Assembly (NCBI RefSeq): GCF_000015825.1
Contig: NC_009051.1
Coordinates: 434,001 to 498,000 of the forward strand
DNA: 64,000 bases
Source: Methanoculleus marisnigri JR1
GTDB lineage: Archaea > Halobacteriota > Methanomicrobia > Methanomicrobiales > Methanoculleaceae
Reading direction: 5' to 3'
The position numbers and the translations under genes are program-made. The notes under the pieces were generated by a model. The model searched no databases. It saw only the letters and a program-made list of their open reading frames with translations, and was not told the DNA's origin. This document shows positions 6,577-55,002 of the stretch, piece after piece (positions within the stretch are counted from its first letter, which is position 1; the number at the start of each line of letters is the position of its first letter).

Positions 6577-7266
6577 TTATTCTTTTCTCATTTTACCCAT
6601 CAACTGGTCCATCATCTCCGGCGCCCGGTCGCGCATGCCGAGCCCGATGATGATGGCGATTGCCGCACCGATGCCGATCCCGACTCCCCAGGCGATCGGG
6701 ACGACGAAGACGTAGATGATCGAGAGGTCGAGCAGGAGCTGCTGGAGTGCGAGGATGGCGACGACGAAGTAGAGGAACGCCCGTAGCAGCATCGCGATCA
6801 ATCCGAAGCCCTGGATCTGCTGTGTCTCCCCCATGTTCTGGAGGAAGTCGATCAGCCAGTCGATCAGGATGAACCCGGCGATCAGGATGACGAGGAACGC
6901 GACGACGTTCGGGATGTAAGCCACGATGGCCGCAACCGCTGCCGTCAGGGCAGGGATTTGCAGGACGCTGACCGCCGTGAGGATTGCGATGAGGTAGATG
7001 AACCAGCGGACGATGAGGTCGAAGAGGTGGCTTATGTTCATCGTGGAACGTTCGATCTGCTGGCCGACCGATGTCTTCCGGAGCGCGTCGTCGACGCCGA
7101 CCCGGTCGAGGACTTCGGAAACGACCTTCCCGAGGATACGCCCGAGGATCCAGCCGATGATCAGGATGACGATCGCTGCAATGAGGTTTGGCAGAAATAG
7201 GATGACGTTACGGGCCAGTTCTTGAACCGGCTCAAACACCTGAGCCGAGAGGTCTCCATTTGTCAC
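6577..7266 (-). CDS. conserved TM-helix membrane protein (mechanosensitive-channel-related)
   Basis: 229 residues with about five long hydrophobic segments. NLIAAIVILIIGWILGRILG is the typical conserved TM helix (PF05552), a pore-lining-like segment also found next to MscS domains. No MscS beta domain follows, so a channel role is only suggested. Start is GTG 7266 with GGTGAT six bases upstream. A TATA-like TTTATATAG lies further upstream. The tandem 97-bp repeats lie behind its promoter. Confidence 0.78.
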   Translation of the reverse strand: MTNGDLSAQVFEPVQELARNVILFLPNLIAAIVILIIGWILGRILGKVVSEVLDRVGVDDALRKTSVGQQIERSTMNISHLFDLIVRWFIYLIAILTAVSVLQIPALTAAVAAIVAYIPNVVAFLVILIAGFILIDWLIDFLQNMGETQQIQGFGLIAMLLRAFLYFVVAILALQQLLLDLSIIYVFVVPIAWGVGIGIGAAIAIIIGLGMRDRAPEMMDQLMGKMRKE

Positions 7267-7342
7267 GGTATATCACCGGGGGAAGGATATGGGAGGTACT
7301 ATATAAATCTTGATGCCCCGGCCGCCCGGGGGGCGCGGGAAG

Positions 7343-7820
7343 ACCGCTGCAGGGGAGCTCGAGCACCCGATAGGTGCGAGGTGCGACTGCCGGAACGGCA
7401 GGAGCATGAGAAAACGCGAAGCGTTTTCGGGGCAGGAGCGTGAGCACCGCTAGGTGCGGACTGCGACGGGCCGCAGGGTGCGACTGCCGGAACGGCAGGA
7501 GCATGAGAAAACGCGAAGCGTTTTCGGGGCAGGAGCGTGAGCACCGCTAGGTGCGGACTGCGACGGGCCGCAGGGTGCGACTGCCGGAACGGCAGGAGCA
7601 TGAGAAAACGCGAAGCGTTTTCGGGGCAGGAGCGTGAGCACCGCTAGGTGCGGACTGCGACGGGCCGCAGGGTGCGACTGCCGGAACGGCAGGAGCATGA
7701 GAAAACGCGAAGCGTTTTCGGGGCAGGAGCGTGAGCACCGCTAGGTGCGGACTGCGACGGGCCGCAGGGTGCGACGTTCCAACGGAACGGAGCTGGAGCA
7801 CCGTCAAGTGAACCGGACAG
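7343..7820. repeat. tandem array of four 97-bp palindrome-rich repeats with partial copies at both ends
   Basis: Four essentially identical 97-base units start at 7381, 7478, 7575 and 7672 and end at 7768. Each unit holds four small stem-loops in order: CTGCCG-gaa-CGGCAG, GAAAACGC-gaa-GCGTTTTC, GCACC-gcta-GGTGC and CTGCG...CGCAG, separated by GGAGCxTGAG-like linkers. Left of the array is a variant with GAGCACC...GGTGCGAG; right of it GTGCGA continues into a different stem, CGTTCC-aac-GGAACG, then GGAGCTGGAGCACC. The array sits between the start of the membrane protein gene at 7266 and the 3' end of the MMPL gene. It is not a CRISPR, since there are no unique spacers. Confidence 0.95.
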
Positions 7821-7852
7821 GAACTTCTCAAAAAAAGGGGGCGTATAGAGGG

Positions 7853-10111
7853 TTACTCCGTCACCCCGGCCGCCGCTATGGCCCGGGAACGGCCGCTGAG
7901 GCGGTACATCAGCGCGAGGATCGCCGGCATGACGACGATTGCGCCCACGAGCGAGAACCCTACCGATATGACCGTCACGATCCCGAAGTTGCTGATGATG
8001 TTGAACGTCGAGAAGGTGAGCGCCGAGAACCCGAAGACCGTCGTCAGCCCGGAGACCGTGATAGCCGTCCCGATCTTCTGGACGGCGGTCTGGACGGCGT
8101 CGAGGAACTCCGTGCCCCGGCTGAGTTCCTCCTCGCACCGCTCCATGATCAGGATGGTGTACTCGGACGCGACGCCGATCGTCATCGACCCGAGGACGGC
8201 GGTCAGCGGCGTGTAGTCGAGACCGAGGAGATACATGATCGCGCCGTTCCAGCCCACGATGAAGACGATCGGGATGACCGGCGAGACGGCGCCGAACTTC
8301 CGGTAGACGAGGATCAGGAACCCGAGGATGAAGGCAAACCCGAGCACGGTCATATACACCCTGGACTCGCTGATATCGTCCATGACGGCGGCAAACATCT
8401 CCATCTGGCCGGTGATCTTCACCGTCACCCCGGCCGGCGGGTTGTTCCACGCAACGTCGTCCTGTATCCTCCCGACGAGGTCGCGGGCGGCACTCATCTC
8501 CATGTCGACCGTCGAGAACTCGAGCACCGCCTCCAGGTTCCCGTTGAGGTAACGGGAGAGGGTCTCCTCCGGGATCCGGGCAATAATATTGTTGACCTCC
8601 CTTTCGGTCGAGGGGAGCACGCCGCCGTTATGCTCCCGGATCAGGGTCGCGACACTCGTGACGCCCGTGATCTTGTCGTTATGCTCCTGCTCGTAGACCC
8701 CGAACTGATCTATCCAGGCAAGCGTCTCCGGGGAGAGGACGTCGTCTGCGAGCACGACGACCGGGATGGTGCTCGTCGAGCCCATGACCCGGGTAAGTTT
8801 CTCGAGGGAGAGAAGGGCGGGCATATCGCCGGGGACGAAGGTCTTCTCGTCCGCACTGACGGGCACGCTCTGGTCGAGGTAAAAGCCCCCTGCCGCGACC
8901 GTCGCAAAGATCAGGATGACGGGAATCGGGTATTTCGCGACGGTGTAGGCGAGCCTGCCGAGGAGGCGGTCATACCGCTCGATGATGGATTCCCCGCCCG
9001 CCGGTTCGGTTCCGGCGGCTGCGGCCTCCTTCATCGGCCGGTAGCGGGTGACGATTGCAAAGACCGGGACGATGATGAGCGCCGCGACATAGCAGGAGAC
9101 GACTCCGATGGTGCAGACCATCCCGAAGTCGGCCACCATCGGCACCGGGGCAAAGAACATCGCGATGAACCCGAGCGCCGTCGCCGACATCGCGATCAGG
9201 ATCGACGGCCCCATCTGCGTGACGGTGGCCCATACGGCCTCCGGGATCGTGCCGTGCCGGATCTCCTCGTCGAACCGGGCGTGGAGCTGGATCGCGTAAT
9301 CGATTCCGATCCCGATCAGCACCGGGAACGCTCCGACCACCACCATGCTGATGGGAATGCCGAAGAGGCCCATGAACCCGAAGGTCATGATCAGCCCGAC
9401 GGCCACGATCCCGACCGGGAGCAGGCGGTAGCGGACGTGGGAGAAGAGGAGCGTCACCGCGAGGACCATCAGGACCATGGCCACCAGGATCAGCATGCCT
9501 GTCTCGGATCCCATCGCCTCGCCCATCTCCAGCGAGAACGCGGGGTTGCCGGATACCGTGACCGTGAGCCCCGGCGGGGGCTCCGATATGGCGATGATGG
9601 ATTTGATGTTCCCGACAACCTGCTGCTGCGCCTCCATGGTGACGCCGGGCTCGAGGGCGATGACGCTGATCGTCATCAGATCCGAGGGCAGCATCCTCTC
9701 CACCATCTCCGGCGGAGCCTGTCCGATGATAGCGTCGATCTCCGCTGTGGACGACGGCAGGGTGCCGCCGTTCGCCTGTTTCAGGAGGTCGACGACGCCG
9801 GAGACCTCGTCGACGTAGCGCTCGTTCCTGAGGTCTTCCTGGAGATGGTCGATATACCTGAGGATCTCGGGACTCCGGACGCTGTCCGTCTCGTAGATGA
9901 GCATGATCGCGTCGGAGCCGTAGGTCTCGGCGTAGTGGTTCAGGAGCGCGCCGCGGGGCGTGCTCTTGTCGAGGTAGGCGTCGTCGCTGGTCTCCATCGA
10001 GACCATCGAGAGCCCGAAGCAAGCCACAATGAAGATAGCCGCGGCGACCCCGGCGACGGTCCAGGTATGGTTGTTGATGGCGGCAGCGAGCCACTCGTAG
10101 GGGTTCTTCAT
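7853..10111 (-). CDS. MMPL/RND-superfamily transporter (HAE3-like)
   Basis: 752 residues. It has the duplicated RND plan: TM1, a large extracellular loop, five or six TMs including a GIGIDYAIQLHARFDEE segment, then the second half with SMTIGVASEYTILIMERCEEE. Conserved Asp and Glu in these two segments are typical of proton-driven MMPL exporters of hydrophobic or amphiphilic molecules. The gene begins ATGA over the stop of the small upstream gene, so the two are translationally coupled. Cargo unknown; in archaea it may be lipids or toxic organics. Confidence 0.92.
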   Translation of the reverse strand: MKNPYEWLAAAINNHTWTVAGVAAAIFIVACFGLSMVSMETSDDAYLDKSTPRGALLNHYAETYGSDAIMLIYETDSVRSPEILRYIDHLQEDLRNERYVDEVSGVVDLLKQANGGTLPSSTAEIDAIIGQAPPEMVERMLPSDLMTISVIALEPGVTMEAQQQVVGNIKSIIAISEPPPGLTVTVSGNPAFSLEMGEAMGSETGMLILVAMVLMVLAVTLLFSHVRYRLLPVGIVAVGLIMTFGFMGLFGIPISMVVVGAFPVLIGIGIDYAIQLHARFDEEIRHGTIPEAVWATVTQMGPSILIAMSATALGFIAMFFAPVPMVADFGMVCTIGVVSCYVAALIIVPVFAIVTRYRPMKEAAAAGTEPAGGESIIERYDRLLGRLAYTVAKYPIPVILIFATVAAGGFYLDQSVPVSADEKTFVPGDMPALLSLEKLTRVMGSTSTIPVVVLADDVLSPETLAWIDQFGVYEQEHNDKITGVTSVATLIREHNGGVLPSTEREVNNIIARIPEETLSRYLNGNLEAVLEFSTVDMEMSAARDLVGRIQDDVAWNNPPAGVTVKITGQMEMFAAVMDDISESRVYMTVLGFAFILGFLILVYRKFGAVSPVIPIVFIVGWNGAIMYLLGLDYTPLTAVLGSMTIGVASEYTILIMERCEEELSRGTEFLDAVQTAVQKIGTAITVSGLTTVFGFSALTFSTFNIISNFGIVTVISVGFSLVGAIVVMPAILALMYRLSGRSRAIAAAGVTE

Positions 10112-13950: not shown

Positions 13951-14220
13951 GGTGTGCGGTATGGTGTCCCGGATAATTATACCTGGCGTTAACGACGAAG
14001 TTTTTCGAAGTCTTGCGCCTGTCGAGCGGCGGTTTTTCCCTCCTGATGGCTGGTGTGCAAAAAGAACTGATGGAGGGCGGGCGACCGGCCATCGGGCAGG
14101 GGTTTGAGAAACGCGATGCGTTTCGAATGGGTTTCCTCGCCCCGGTATCGGTGTTTTGAGACGCCTTCCTGATCAGTGTATCCAGGAGCAATCCGAGACG
14201 ATCGAACGAAACAAAAGGAA
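13951..14220. other. 270-base intergenic region with one stem-loop
   Basis: No gene is supported. GAAACGC-gat-GCGTTTC at 14108-14124, preceded by TTTGA, closely resembles the second stem-loop of the 97-bp repeats (GAAAACGC-gaa-GCGTTTTC) and is probably a solitary member of the same family. Confidence 0.55.
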
Positions 14221-35386: not shown

Positions 35387-36418
35387 ATGCAGTGCAGCAA
35401 GTGCCGCCGCGACGCGGTCATTTTCCAGCGATACTCGGGGCTGCACCTCTGCGAGCATCACTTCAACCGGGATTTCGAGGCGAAGGCGAAGCGGGCGATC
35501 CGGGAGCACCGCTGGATCGAGTCGGGGGACACGGTGGCGGTGGCGCTCTCGGGGGGCAAGGACTCGAGCGCCGTCCTCTTCTTCCTCCACCGGCTCCTCG
35601 GTGAGCGCCGGGACGTGCGGCTGATGGCGATCACGGTGGACGAGGGGATCTCCGGCTACCGCGACCCGAACCAGGCCAGGAAGATTGCCGAGAGCATGGG
35701 CGTCCCCTGGGTGACGGCAACGTTTGCCGACGAATACAGGATCACGCTCGACGAGATCGTGGCGCGGAAAGGGACGGGGCTCTCCTGCTCCTACTGCGGC
35801 GTGCTCCGGCGGGCGCTGATGAACCGGATTGCCCGCGAACACGACGTCACGAAGTTCGCGTATGGGTTCAACCTGGACGACGAAGCCCAGTCGGTGCTGA
35901 TGAACGCCCTCCGGGGGGATGCGGAACGGCTCACCCGTCCTATGCGGGAGGCGGAGGGGATGGTTCCCCGGATCAAGCCGTTCATGTACATCCCGGAGCG
36001 CGAGGTGGCGCTTTACGCCTTCCTCCACGTCGAGGGCTTCGACCTTGCGGGCTGCCCCTACGCGGGCGACGCTCTCCGGGGCGACGTCCGCGGCATCCTC
36101 GACGACTACACCTACCGTCACCCGGCGACGAAGTACTCGCTCGTGAACCTCGGCGAGGCCCTCCGGGGGACGGAGAGACCCGAGACGAAGATGGGGTTCG
36201 GAATTTGCGAGAGGTGTGGTGAGCGACTGCCGGAACGGCAGGAGCTTGAGCACCGGGAGGTGCGGGATGCGACTGCCGGAACGGCGGGAGCACGAGCACC
36301 GAAGAACGACGTTCCTTCAGGAACGGAGTTTGAGCACCGGAGGTGCGAAGGTGCGAAGCCGTGCGGGAAGATCTGCCGGACGTGCCAGGTGCTTGATGAG
36401 GTTCGGAAGGGGGGTTGA
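35387..36418 (+). CDS. tRNA 2-thiolation adenylyltransferase (TtuA/CTU1/NcsA-like, TIGR00269) with in-frame repeat insertion
   Basis: 343 residues. N-terminal zinc knuckle MQCSKCRRDA...LHLCEHHF; PP-loop VALSGGKDSSAVL; catalytic/Fe-S cysteines in LSCSYCGVLRR and LAGCPYAGD; C-terminal knuckle CERCG...CGKICRTCQVL. It adenylates and thiolates U34 or U54 of tRNA. Normally the last two CxxC pairs lie within about ten residues. Here 45 extra residues (about 280-324) separate them, encoded by the palindromic repeats at 36224-36358. The frame stays open and the cysteines are kept, so it may still be functional. Confidence 0.92.
   Translation: MQCSKCRRDAVIFQRYSGLHLCEHHFNRDFEAKAKRAIREHRWIESGDTVAVALSGGKDSSAVLFFLHRLLGERRDVRLMAITVDEGISGYRDPNQARKIAESMGVPWVTATFADEYRITLDEIVARKGTGLSCSYCGVLRRALMNRIAREHDVTKFAYGFNLDDEAQSVLMNALRGDAERLTRPMREAEGMVPRIKPFMYIPEREVALYAFLHVEGFDLAGCPYAGDALRGDVRGILDDYTYRHPATKYSLVNLGEALRGTERPETKMGFGICERCGERLPERQELEHREVRDATAGTAGARAPKNDVPSGTEFEHRRCEGAKPCGKICRTCQVLDEVRKGG
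36224..36358. repeat. composite palindromic repeat inserted in frame inside the tRNA thiolase gene
   Basis: 135 bases (45 codons). It contains CTGCCG-gaa-CGGCAG, GGAGCTTGAGCACC-ggg-AGGTGCGGGATGCGA, a second CTGCCGGAACGGC, then CGTTCC-ttca-GGAACG and GAGTTTGAGCACCGGAGGTG. These are the same modules as in the 7.4 kb array and at 36.53 and 36.73 kb. The edges are set by joining CERCGE to PCGKICRTC, the normal family sequence. Confidence 0.88.
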
Positions 36419-36912
36419 CAGAGACTGGACGCACTTATCTATGGCATGGAGCGGAACTGTCCAGACGATGAAACCGCCTGGTACGGTGGACCGTGGGTTA
36501 TCGCCATTGGGGGAGGGGCTGACGGGGAGTGCGACGTTCCGCAGGAACGGAGCTCGACCACCGTCAGGTGGGGAGGAGGGCTCGCCCCCCTCCCCTGTCT
36601 CTACCCCGTAGGGCTCTACCTTTGACCCCCACCGCCCGCGCTTCGCGCTCCTCCCGCCCCCATGGGGGCGGGCAGTGCGTGGCGATAGGCGATGTCCCAT
36701 GGGGACATCGCTGGAGAAGACGGAAGGTGCGACATACCGAAGAAACGGAGCTTGAGCACCATTGGGTGCGGGGGCAGGAGCAGGAGAAAACCAAATGTCT
36801 TGAACCGACGACTGGTTGAAGATGCACAAGCCAGTGGAAATTCGTGTATAGATTGCATAACGTCGCAAAAAGAACTGGATTTTAGTGCCGGCTGAGACTC
36901 TGCCCTTACCCT
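36419..36912. repeat. repeat-rich intergenic region with several perfect stem-loops
   Basis: 36529-36572 carries GTGCGACGTTCC-gca-GGAACGGAGCTC and CCACCgtcaGGTGG. 36653-36672 is CCCGCCCC-catg-GGGGCGGG. 36691-36709 is GATGTCCC-atg-GGGACATC. 36726-36780 carries GGTGCGACATACC, GGAGCTTGAGCACC and GGGTGCGGGGGCAGGAGCAGG. Their shared linkers tie them to the 97-bp array. I find no credible gene here; the overlapping frames encode only translated repeat. Confidence 0.8.
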
Positions 36913-53563: not shown

Positions 53564-54655
53564 ATGCTTTTTACTGGAGAGGGCCCGTTGACCGGGCTCA
53601 TCACGGTCTTTCTTATCATCGTCATCATCATCATCTTCGCCCGTGGCGTGGTGATCGTACAGCCCTACGAACAGGGACTTCAGATCCGCCTGGGACGCTA
53701 CATCGGGAGGATGAACCCCGGCTTTCGGTGGGTCGTCCCGCTGATTACGGTAGTCAAGAAACTCGACCTCCGGACAGAGGTGATGGACGTCCCGCGGCAG
53801 GAGGTGATCACGAAGGACAACTCCCCGACGAACGTCGACGCGATCGTCTATGTCCGAATAATCGATCCCGAGAAGGCCTACTTCGAGGTGATGAACTACC
53901 GGTCGGCGACGGTGGCGCTGGCGCAGACGAGCCTGCGCGGGATCATCGGCGACATGGAACTCGACGAGGTCCTCTACAACCGGGACGTCATCAACGCCCG
54001 CCTCAGGGATATTCTGGACCGTGAGACCGATGCCTGGGGCGTCAAAGTCGAGCGAGTGGAGATCAAGGAGGTCGACCCGGTGGGTGCGGTCAAGCAGGCG
54101 ATGACCGAGCAGACCGCGGCCGAGCGTGAGCGGCGTGCGGCGATCCTCCGTGCGGACGGCGAGAAGCGGGCGGCGATCCTCAAGGCGGAGGGGAGCCGGC
54201 AGAGCATCATCCTGGAGGCCGAGGGCGAGCGGCAGAGCAAGATCCTGCGGGCCGAGGGTGAACGGCTATCGAAGATCCTGCAGGCGCAGGGCGAGGCGCA
54301 GGGGCTGCGCATCCTCTCGGTCGGCGCCCGGCCGCTTGATAAGCGGGCGATCACGGTCCTCTCCCTCGACGCCTTGAAGAAGATGGCCGAGGGCCAGGCG
54401 ACGAAGATCATATTCCCCTTCGAGCTCTCGAGCATTGTGAAGCAGGCCGCGGAGTACCTCGGCGCCACGACCGAGGCACCCGAAGTTCCGGAAGGAGGAG
54501 AACTGCCCCCGGAGGATATCCTCGGGGAGATCCCGGGACGGGATGTGGTCAGAACCGCTGAGGAGGCGGTAAAGAGCATCGATACCGACATCGGCGTGGA
54601 GATGCAGAAGAAGTCACGGGACCTGATCGGGAAGGGAGAGGACGAGGGGCTATAA
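53564..54655 (+). CDS. stomatin/prohibitin-like SPFH domain protein
   Basis: 363 residues. N-terminal membrane helix, SPFH domain (~25-190) with QPYEQGLQIRLGRY and DVPRQEVITKDN. Then a heptad region with repeats of the AEGERQSKIL type (~195-250) forming the oligomeric coiled coil, and a Pro/Glu-rich tail. It forms large membrane scaffolds with NfeD. The repeated 12-residue units reflect internal duplication at DNA level (54150-54300). Confidence 0.94.
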   Translation: MLFTGEGPLTGLITVFLIIVIIIIFARGVVIVQPYEQGLQIRLGRYIGRMNPGFRWVVPLITVVKKLDLRTEVMDVPRQEVITKDNSPTNVDAIVYVRIIDPEKAYFEVMNYRSATVALAQTSLRGIIGDMELDEVLYNRDVINARLRDILDRETDAWGVKVERVEIKEVDPVGAVKQAMTEQTAAERERRAAILRADGEKRAAILKAEGSRQSIILEAEGERQSKILRAEGERLSKILQAQGEAQGLRILSVGARPLDKRAITVLSLDALKKMAEGQATKIIFPFELSSIVKQAAEYLGATTEAPEVPEGGELPPEDILGEIPGRDVVRTAEEAVKSIDTDIGVEMQKKSRDLIGKGEDEGL

Positions 54656-55002
54656 GGCCCGGTCCCCCCCCTCTTTTATTCATCGAACCCGAATTCCACT
54701 TGACCCTGCCGAACCTGAAGCGGGAGTAATTTCTGTAATTCCAGCGTTTAAAGGGTGCAATGGCAGGCTTCCCCCGGCTGAGACTCCGGCACCACCGCTA
54801 TTGTCTCACGCGAAGAACGACTGCCGATACAGCCGGGTTTTGAGAAAAACGAAGTTCTTCGAGACCGCGAAGGAGGTTATAGGTTTGCCGAAAAATACCG
54901 CCTTCGCGAAGGGGCGGCCCTTTGGGTCGGAGTTCAGGCCCCGGGGGTAAACCTCTACGCGTGGGAGAATTGAGATCGCTGCACCGCCTGGTGCAGTGAG
55001 TC
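54656..55002. other. 347-base intergenic region between convergent genes, with hairpins
   Basis: GTTTTGAGAAAAACGAAG-TTCTTCGAGACC (~54836-54868) recalls the dispersed repeat modules. GCGAAGG...CCTTCGC (~54869-54920) is a long-loop inverted repeat. CTGCACC-gcct-GGTGCAG at 54979-54996 lies just past the protease stop and may end its transcript. No gene supported. Confidence 0.5.
54979..54996 (-). terminator. stem-loop after the site-2 protease gene
   Basis: Perfect 7-bp stem CTGCACC/GGTGCAG with a 4-base loop, starting 7 bases beyond the stop of the leftward protease gene. It may mark a 3' end; no strong T-tract follows, so the call is tentative. The GCACC...GGTGC core is also the stem used in the dispersed repeats. 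Confidence 0.4.

Follow-up and report, generated by a model that had tools for sequence, protein, structure and literature searches.

Intergenic repeats with a mosaic structure, in which subunits recur in varying number, include the neisserial NIME/dRS3 and the pneumococcal BOX elements. RAYT transposases move REP elements, and integron integrases move attC sites, by way of a folded single strand. REP families are defined by a GTAG or CGTC tag (PMC3733652). A survey of satellites (Subirana and Messeguer, 2019) counted 21 in Methanoculleus marisnigri, among them families with periods of 45 and 51 bp; the only species it named for families of non-coding long-repeat satellites were Leptospira interrogans and Methanocella conradii (PMC6749651).

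Here, we compare with these systems a tandem array in M. marisnigri JR1, the genome of which is a single closed contig of 2,478,101 bases. The stretch analysed (64,000 bp; NC_009051.1, positions 434,001 to 498,000) is called the window, and coordinates refer to it unless given in kb or Mb of the genome. TRF detected 4.1 copies of a 97-bp period with 100% identity at 7380-7775, in agreement with the original prediction of a four-copy array of identical units that had duplicated recently. A chance origin of four such copies is ruled out. As the four units do not differ at any position and hold no unique spacers, the array was rightly set apart from CRISPR. Each unit contains four stems (CTGCCGgaaCGGCAG, GAAAACGCgaaGCGTTTTC, GCACCgctaGGTGC, and CTGCGacgggcCGCAG); the single-strand fold of one unit gave z = -4.2 as DNA and z = -5.3 as RNA, and none of 200 shuffles folded equally well. 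The exchange of modules expected at the flanks was found on the right side, where the partial module switches to CGTTCCaacGGAACG at 7775-7789. The locus comprises the following features:

6577..7266, minus strand: downstream neighbour, small membrane protein with a mechanosensitive-channel TM helix (PF05552)
7354..7379, plus strand: left partial module (GGAGCTCGA-GCACCcgataGGTGC-GA), from the sequence
7380-7476, 7477-7573, 7574-7670, 7671-7767, plus strand: four identical 97-bp units (TRF, 100% match)
7387..7401, plus strand: unit 1, A hairpin CTGCCG-gaa-CGGCAG
7402..7409, plus strand: unit 1, conserved linker GAGCATGA
7410..7428, plus strand: unit 1, B hairpin GAAAACGC-gaa-GCGTTTTC
7444..7457, plus strand: unit 1, second B-type hairpin GCACC-gcta-GGTGC
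7461..7476, plus strand: unit 1, fourth stem CTGCG-acgggc-CGCAG
7770..7816, plus strand: right partial module with the A stem swapped to CGTTCC-aac-GGAACG (covariance model)
7853..10111, minus strand: upstream neighbour, MMPL/RND-type exporter (PF03176)

The array thus lies between two minus-strand genes, in the order exporter stop codon, T-run, array, and TATA-like sequence of the gene for the small membrane protein. No Rfam family matched at the array. Overlapping minus-strand ORFs (MLLPFRQSHPAARRS... / SHAPAPKTLRVFSC...) at 7232-8450 derive from modules and probably do not represent genes, and short hypothetical proteins of this type in related genomes may have arisen in this way too. Minus-strand frames had been described as staying open across units. 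This holds for ORFs of 82-100 aa, which span about 2.5 units, but no frame remains open beyond about 3 units, because each unit contains a TAG (CTA in GCTAGG) in one frame.

Modules with exchangeable hairpins

Modular stems on conserved linkers, as predicted from the array, were recovered among the genome matches as a fixed grammar, CGA-[hairpin A]-GAG(C/T)NNGA-[hairpin B]-GA, which sets two short hairpins of one strand on GA-rich linkers. Hairpin A usually has 6 bp (C....G) and hairpin B 5-9 bp (G....C), both with loops of 3-4 bases. The 147 distinct module sequences drew on 36 different A stems and 16 different B stems, joined by 16 linkers; A and B stems occurred in 69 combinations, and the mutual information between A and B (1.05 vs 0.92 +/- 0.06 after shuffling) was close to free assortment. 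A covariance model trained on 6 and later on 150 modules placed the modules of the array at 7382, 7479, 7576, and 7673. Stem cells were paired in 96.5% of cases vs 72.5% in shuffles, and in a set independent of model building in 94.7% vs 71.1%, percentages that are biased upward as the alignments were fitted to the structure; pairing also far exceeded that in slid controls.

Pairs of the G.U type made up about 2-4% of the paired cells. The loops are GNA or GNNA, and only 11 of 65 GNNA loops were GNRA; linkers and loops are strand-asymmetric. GNA triloops and GNNA tetraloops are stable DNA loops. The evidence leans to an activity as DNA over RNA, because G.U pairs are few, GNNA loops are rarely GNRA, and the modules have no overall orientation bias (see below).

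In position-matched copies, 788 stem pairs included 20 one-arm changes and 9 both-arm changes, the latter mostly belonging to whole-stem swaps; a copy at 915 kb differs in one arm only of a G/C stem. The covariation therefore reflects hairpin exchange, since matched copies change one arm or swap whole stems. Stepwise compensatory evolution was rejected, as the both-arm changes in matched copies mostly belong to whole-stem swaps and not to single-pair double changes, and base-by-base copying from arm to arm is contradicted by the one-arm changes and whole-stem swaps. Matched copies diverged at 38 of 1576 stem bases (2.4%) vs 34 of 419 loop bases (8.1%), which may be due to selection, recent copying, or conversion.

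The covariance model detected 318 modules in 98 clusters within 617 kb of the M. marisnigri genome, consisting of stretches around module sites and a few unselected stretches. For the whole genome we estimate about 85 clusters and about 255 modules, a rough extrapolation from the 9 clusters present in unselected stretches totalling 262 kb. The array thus represents one site in about 85 of a family that spans the genus, a scale that was invisible to the reader of the window. Further modules in the window are:

14080..14131, plus strand: single module of the same family (covariance model, 49 bits)
36530..36579, plus strand: module inside a larger palindromic (M2) element (covariance model)
36728..36776, plus strand: degenerate module (covariance model)
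54816..54867, plus strand: single module of the same family (covariance model, 43 bits)

The original prediction would have been refuted if the 97-bp unit were confined to this array, which it is not. With the unit as query, the genome yielded 75 matches, two copies of 96-97% identity (positions 1-80) were found at 1.39 Mb, and sister species contain full or near-full units, some of them in tandem. Modules were matched at 1e-4 in 32 of 35 Methanoculleus genomes; their number is strongly uneven, with few or none in some genomes. In the rest of the Methanomicrobiales one further genus is rich in modules and the others are sparse. Outside the order, three genomes among 295 sampled from the phylum gave single matches near E = 1e-4, which is at chance level, and an exact pattern run over 84,980 species matched only records of Methanoculleus, Methanomicrobiales, or Euryarchaeota. 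The family is native to the Methanomicrobiales and most abundant in Methanoculleus. Viruses were considered as carriers and rejected, as two exact patterns gave zero matches among viral contigs.

Clusters were often accompanied by another repeat: 51 of 98 lay within 350 bp of the palindromic family M2, vs 2 of 607 control windows. M2 is a second, larger element (GTGGACCGTGGGGATATCGCCA ... GGGGCTGACGGGGAGGGGG/CCCCCTCCCCTGTC ... TGGCGATATCC) of about 250-300 bp, in which modules are often nested; it occurs at 36470-36770 in the window and at 915 kb, 1.56 Mb, 1.69 Mb, 1.79 Mb, and other sites of the genome, and had no match in Rfam. Another dispersed repeat (ACTCACGCGAAG-AACGCGAAGCCGCGAAG and its inverse), present at 206.4 kb and elsewhere, is often found beside modules.

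Placement, turnover and insertion into a gene

Gene calls were home-made and based on codon usage. Modules were present in 40 of 51 convergent gaps, 35 of 156 codirectional gaps, and 6 of 77 divergent gaps (Fisher p ~1e-12 for convergent vs codirectional and ~1e-16 for convergent vs divergent); as the sample of gaps was centred on module sites, only the contrast between gap types is meaningful. In codirectional gaps 19 modules ran with the genes and 18 against them. At most 30 bp from a stop codon, 15 of 16 clusters ran in the direction of that gene, which may be due to selection on C-termini. No bias for a replication strand was observed between chromosome halves, set without the position of the origin (27/22 vs 30/19). 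Only 1 of 98 clusters lay within a called gene.

The gap that contains the array is without any module in two sisters with flanks of about 95% identity; M. sediminis carries the unit once at this locus, and other relatives have different modules. Eleven other arrays, with periods of 44-86 bp and 5-22 copies, have also expanded. Growth relative to sisters was apparent with 7 x 52 bp vs 2 copies and 8 x 68 bp vs a remnant. An intragenic 33-bp tandem repeat in the window (54175-54294, 3.6 copies, 76% match) is probably a coding repeat, because its period is divisible by three. A single module of 49 bp at 915 kb is missing in one sister with flanks 100% identical over 120 bp, and this insertion is flanked by a repeat of at most 1 bp. 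Insertions of bare modules had direct repeats of 0-3 bp at their ends and no clear target duplication; no shared target sequence was seen among four insertion sites. Some pairs of presence and absence may be deletions.

The array had been judged not to be a transposon end. This is true for the array, but elsewhere modules are carried within MITE-like elements. An array of 22 x 47 bp lies inside such a MITE, sister copies of which hold 0-2 modules. One MITE family has the ends CGGCTTTGTTGAAACC / GGTTTCAACA(AAGCCG or GGGCC) and target duplications of about 7-10 bp; it occurs at 222.3-223.6 kb, and near-identical copies, some of them bearing modules, are present in several congeners.

The intragenic modules in the window were found in a gene for tRNA thiolation:

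35387..36418, plus strand: TtuA-like tRNA thiolation gene with a 135-bp in-frame insertion
36222..36353, plus strand: three in-frame modules in the TtuA gene (covariance model and empty sites of relatives)

The 135-bp block (45 codons) lies in the loop of the zinc ribbon at the C terminus of TtuA, between its two CxxC pairs. At least 18 congeners have an empty site, one of them a sister with 99% identity across 565 bases of the gene, and in other congeners this point is occupied by different modules. In M. sediminis, TtuA additionally contains a duplication of 102 bp as well as a module of 51 bp, the latter within the loop of a hairpin. Both insertions in the gene are flanked by 3-bp repeats (AGC, GGA). 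A search for further in-frame insertions in congeners gave one weak candidate only, possibly a C-terminal extension. The idea that minus-strand frames, by staying open, help modules to enter genes was not borne out, as the TtuA frame runs along the plus strand of its modules and 97 of the 98 clusters lie outside called genes.

Genome comparison shows gain, loss, whole-hairpin exchange, tandem growth, carriage by MITEs, and in-frame insertion at the level of sequence, and it locates the modules mostly where insertion would be harmless.

Origin and possible role of the array

We consider the array, with a probability of about 0.62, to be a local tandem amplification of one compound unit within a dispersed, mainly selfish or neutral family of mosaic palindromes that acts at the DNA level. 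The hairpin strand would fold while single-stranded in replication or repair, and the conserved linkers would serve as joints for recombination or template switching. Part of the spread would proceed via MITE-like elements carrying modules, and the modules would be mainly selfish or neutral and not a regulatory device of the host. The lower divergence of stems than of loops could indicate selection on hairpins, which counts against neutrality, and the orientation of clusters next to stop codons is explained by a neutral family only through selection on C-termini.

A dedicated enzyme that recognises the folded single strand, comparable to RAYT with REP or integron integrase with attC, might instead move the modules, which we regard as unlikely. 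The units of insertion are whole modules, bare-module ends carry the short repeats that a single-strand mechanism predicts, and the strand asymmetry of linkers and loops agrees with such an enzyme. On the other hand, no shared target sequence was seen at the four insertion sites, and the two candidates surveyed are missing from the M. marisnigri genome. The Y1 transposase (PF01797) had 0 matches in the M. marisnigri genome, so that mobilisation by RAYT was rejected; in the genus, Y1 exceeded the cut-off in 6 of 35 genomes, uncorrelated with modules, and a genome with 19 Y1 matches has none. Mobilisation by reverse transcriptase was rejected likewise, as PF00078 is absent from the M. marisnigri genome. 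Somewhat less probable still is a structure-recognising recombination system of the Methanomicrobiales, with an enzyme of another family, that cuts and joins modules as single-stranded cassettes. If true, it would constitute a combinatorial stem alphabet on fixed linkers and an archaeal counterpart, in principle, to attC/integrase and REP/RAYT.

It is improbable that the modules are functional cis elements, acting between genes as terminators, insulators, or mRNA-stability hairpins. Their strong enrichment in convergent gaps and beside stop codons, the same-strand orientation of clusters there, and the better conservation of stems than loops would fit this role; a cis-acting RNA is nevertheless disfavoured, because divergent promoters are avoided, convergent gaps favoured, and no overall strand bias exists. 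Avoidance of promoters is predicted by any insertion at harmless sites, orientation in codirectional gaps is unbiased, the gap of the array is empty in close relatives, and Rfam gives no match. Archaeal terminators rely on T-tracts, and a T-run already follows the exporter stop codon ahead of the array.

Binding sites for a chromosome-organising protein or a topoisomerase, a role proposed for BIMEs, would agree with the high copy number and with placement between convergent genes, where supercoils accumulate, but the stem sequences vary widely and copy number differs strongly among congeners, with few or none in some, which makes this very improbable. An assembly artefact, to which identical tandem units are prone by collapse or expansion, is of negligible probability given a single closed contig and the presence of related units, in part as tandems, in congeners whose genomes were assembled independently.

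Comparison with known repeat systems

In the open literature we found neither an archaeal family of modular palindromic repeats of this kind nor an archaeal case of in-frame palindrome insertion of the Rickettsia type. If the preferred reading of a selfish or neutral DNA-level family is true, Methanoculleus would be a genus in which, across dozens of sequenced genomes, the gain, loss, swap, and tandem growth of hairpins are readable event by event, including in a conserved tRNA-modification enzyme. The module family would also account for a number of spurious small ORFs and satellites found in Methanoculleus genomes.

Arrays with periods of 45 and 51 bp, as in the 2019 survey, were found here too, and some module satellites appear to have been counted there without explanation; modules, dispersal, exchange, and gene insertion went undescribed in that survey (PMC6749651).

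Like Rickettsia palindromic elements (RPE), the modules are palindromes of about 50-150 bp that occur in many copies per genus and in frame in a conserved gene. By description, not by sequence, they differ from RPE in that 1 of 98 clusters is intragenic whereas RPE have a large intragenic share, and further in their two-hairpin build with exchangeable stems, their long tandem arrays, and their archaeal host. With REP/BIME they share high-copy intergenic hairpins in mosaics, with the bias for convergent gaps seen here. Unlike these, they lack a GTAG/CGTC end tag, the A hairpins being bounded by CGA/GAG and the B hairpins by GA/GA, and the RAYT (Y1) transposase is absent from the M. marisnigri genome. 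Modules inside elements with terminal inverted repeats and target duplications of about 7-10 bp resemble MITEs; for bare modules, neither of these two features was clearly seen. In their mosaic build the modules are like NIME/dRS3 and BOX, from which they differ in sequence and in their grammar, which combines fixed linkers with a stem vocabulary.
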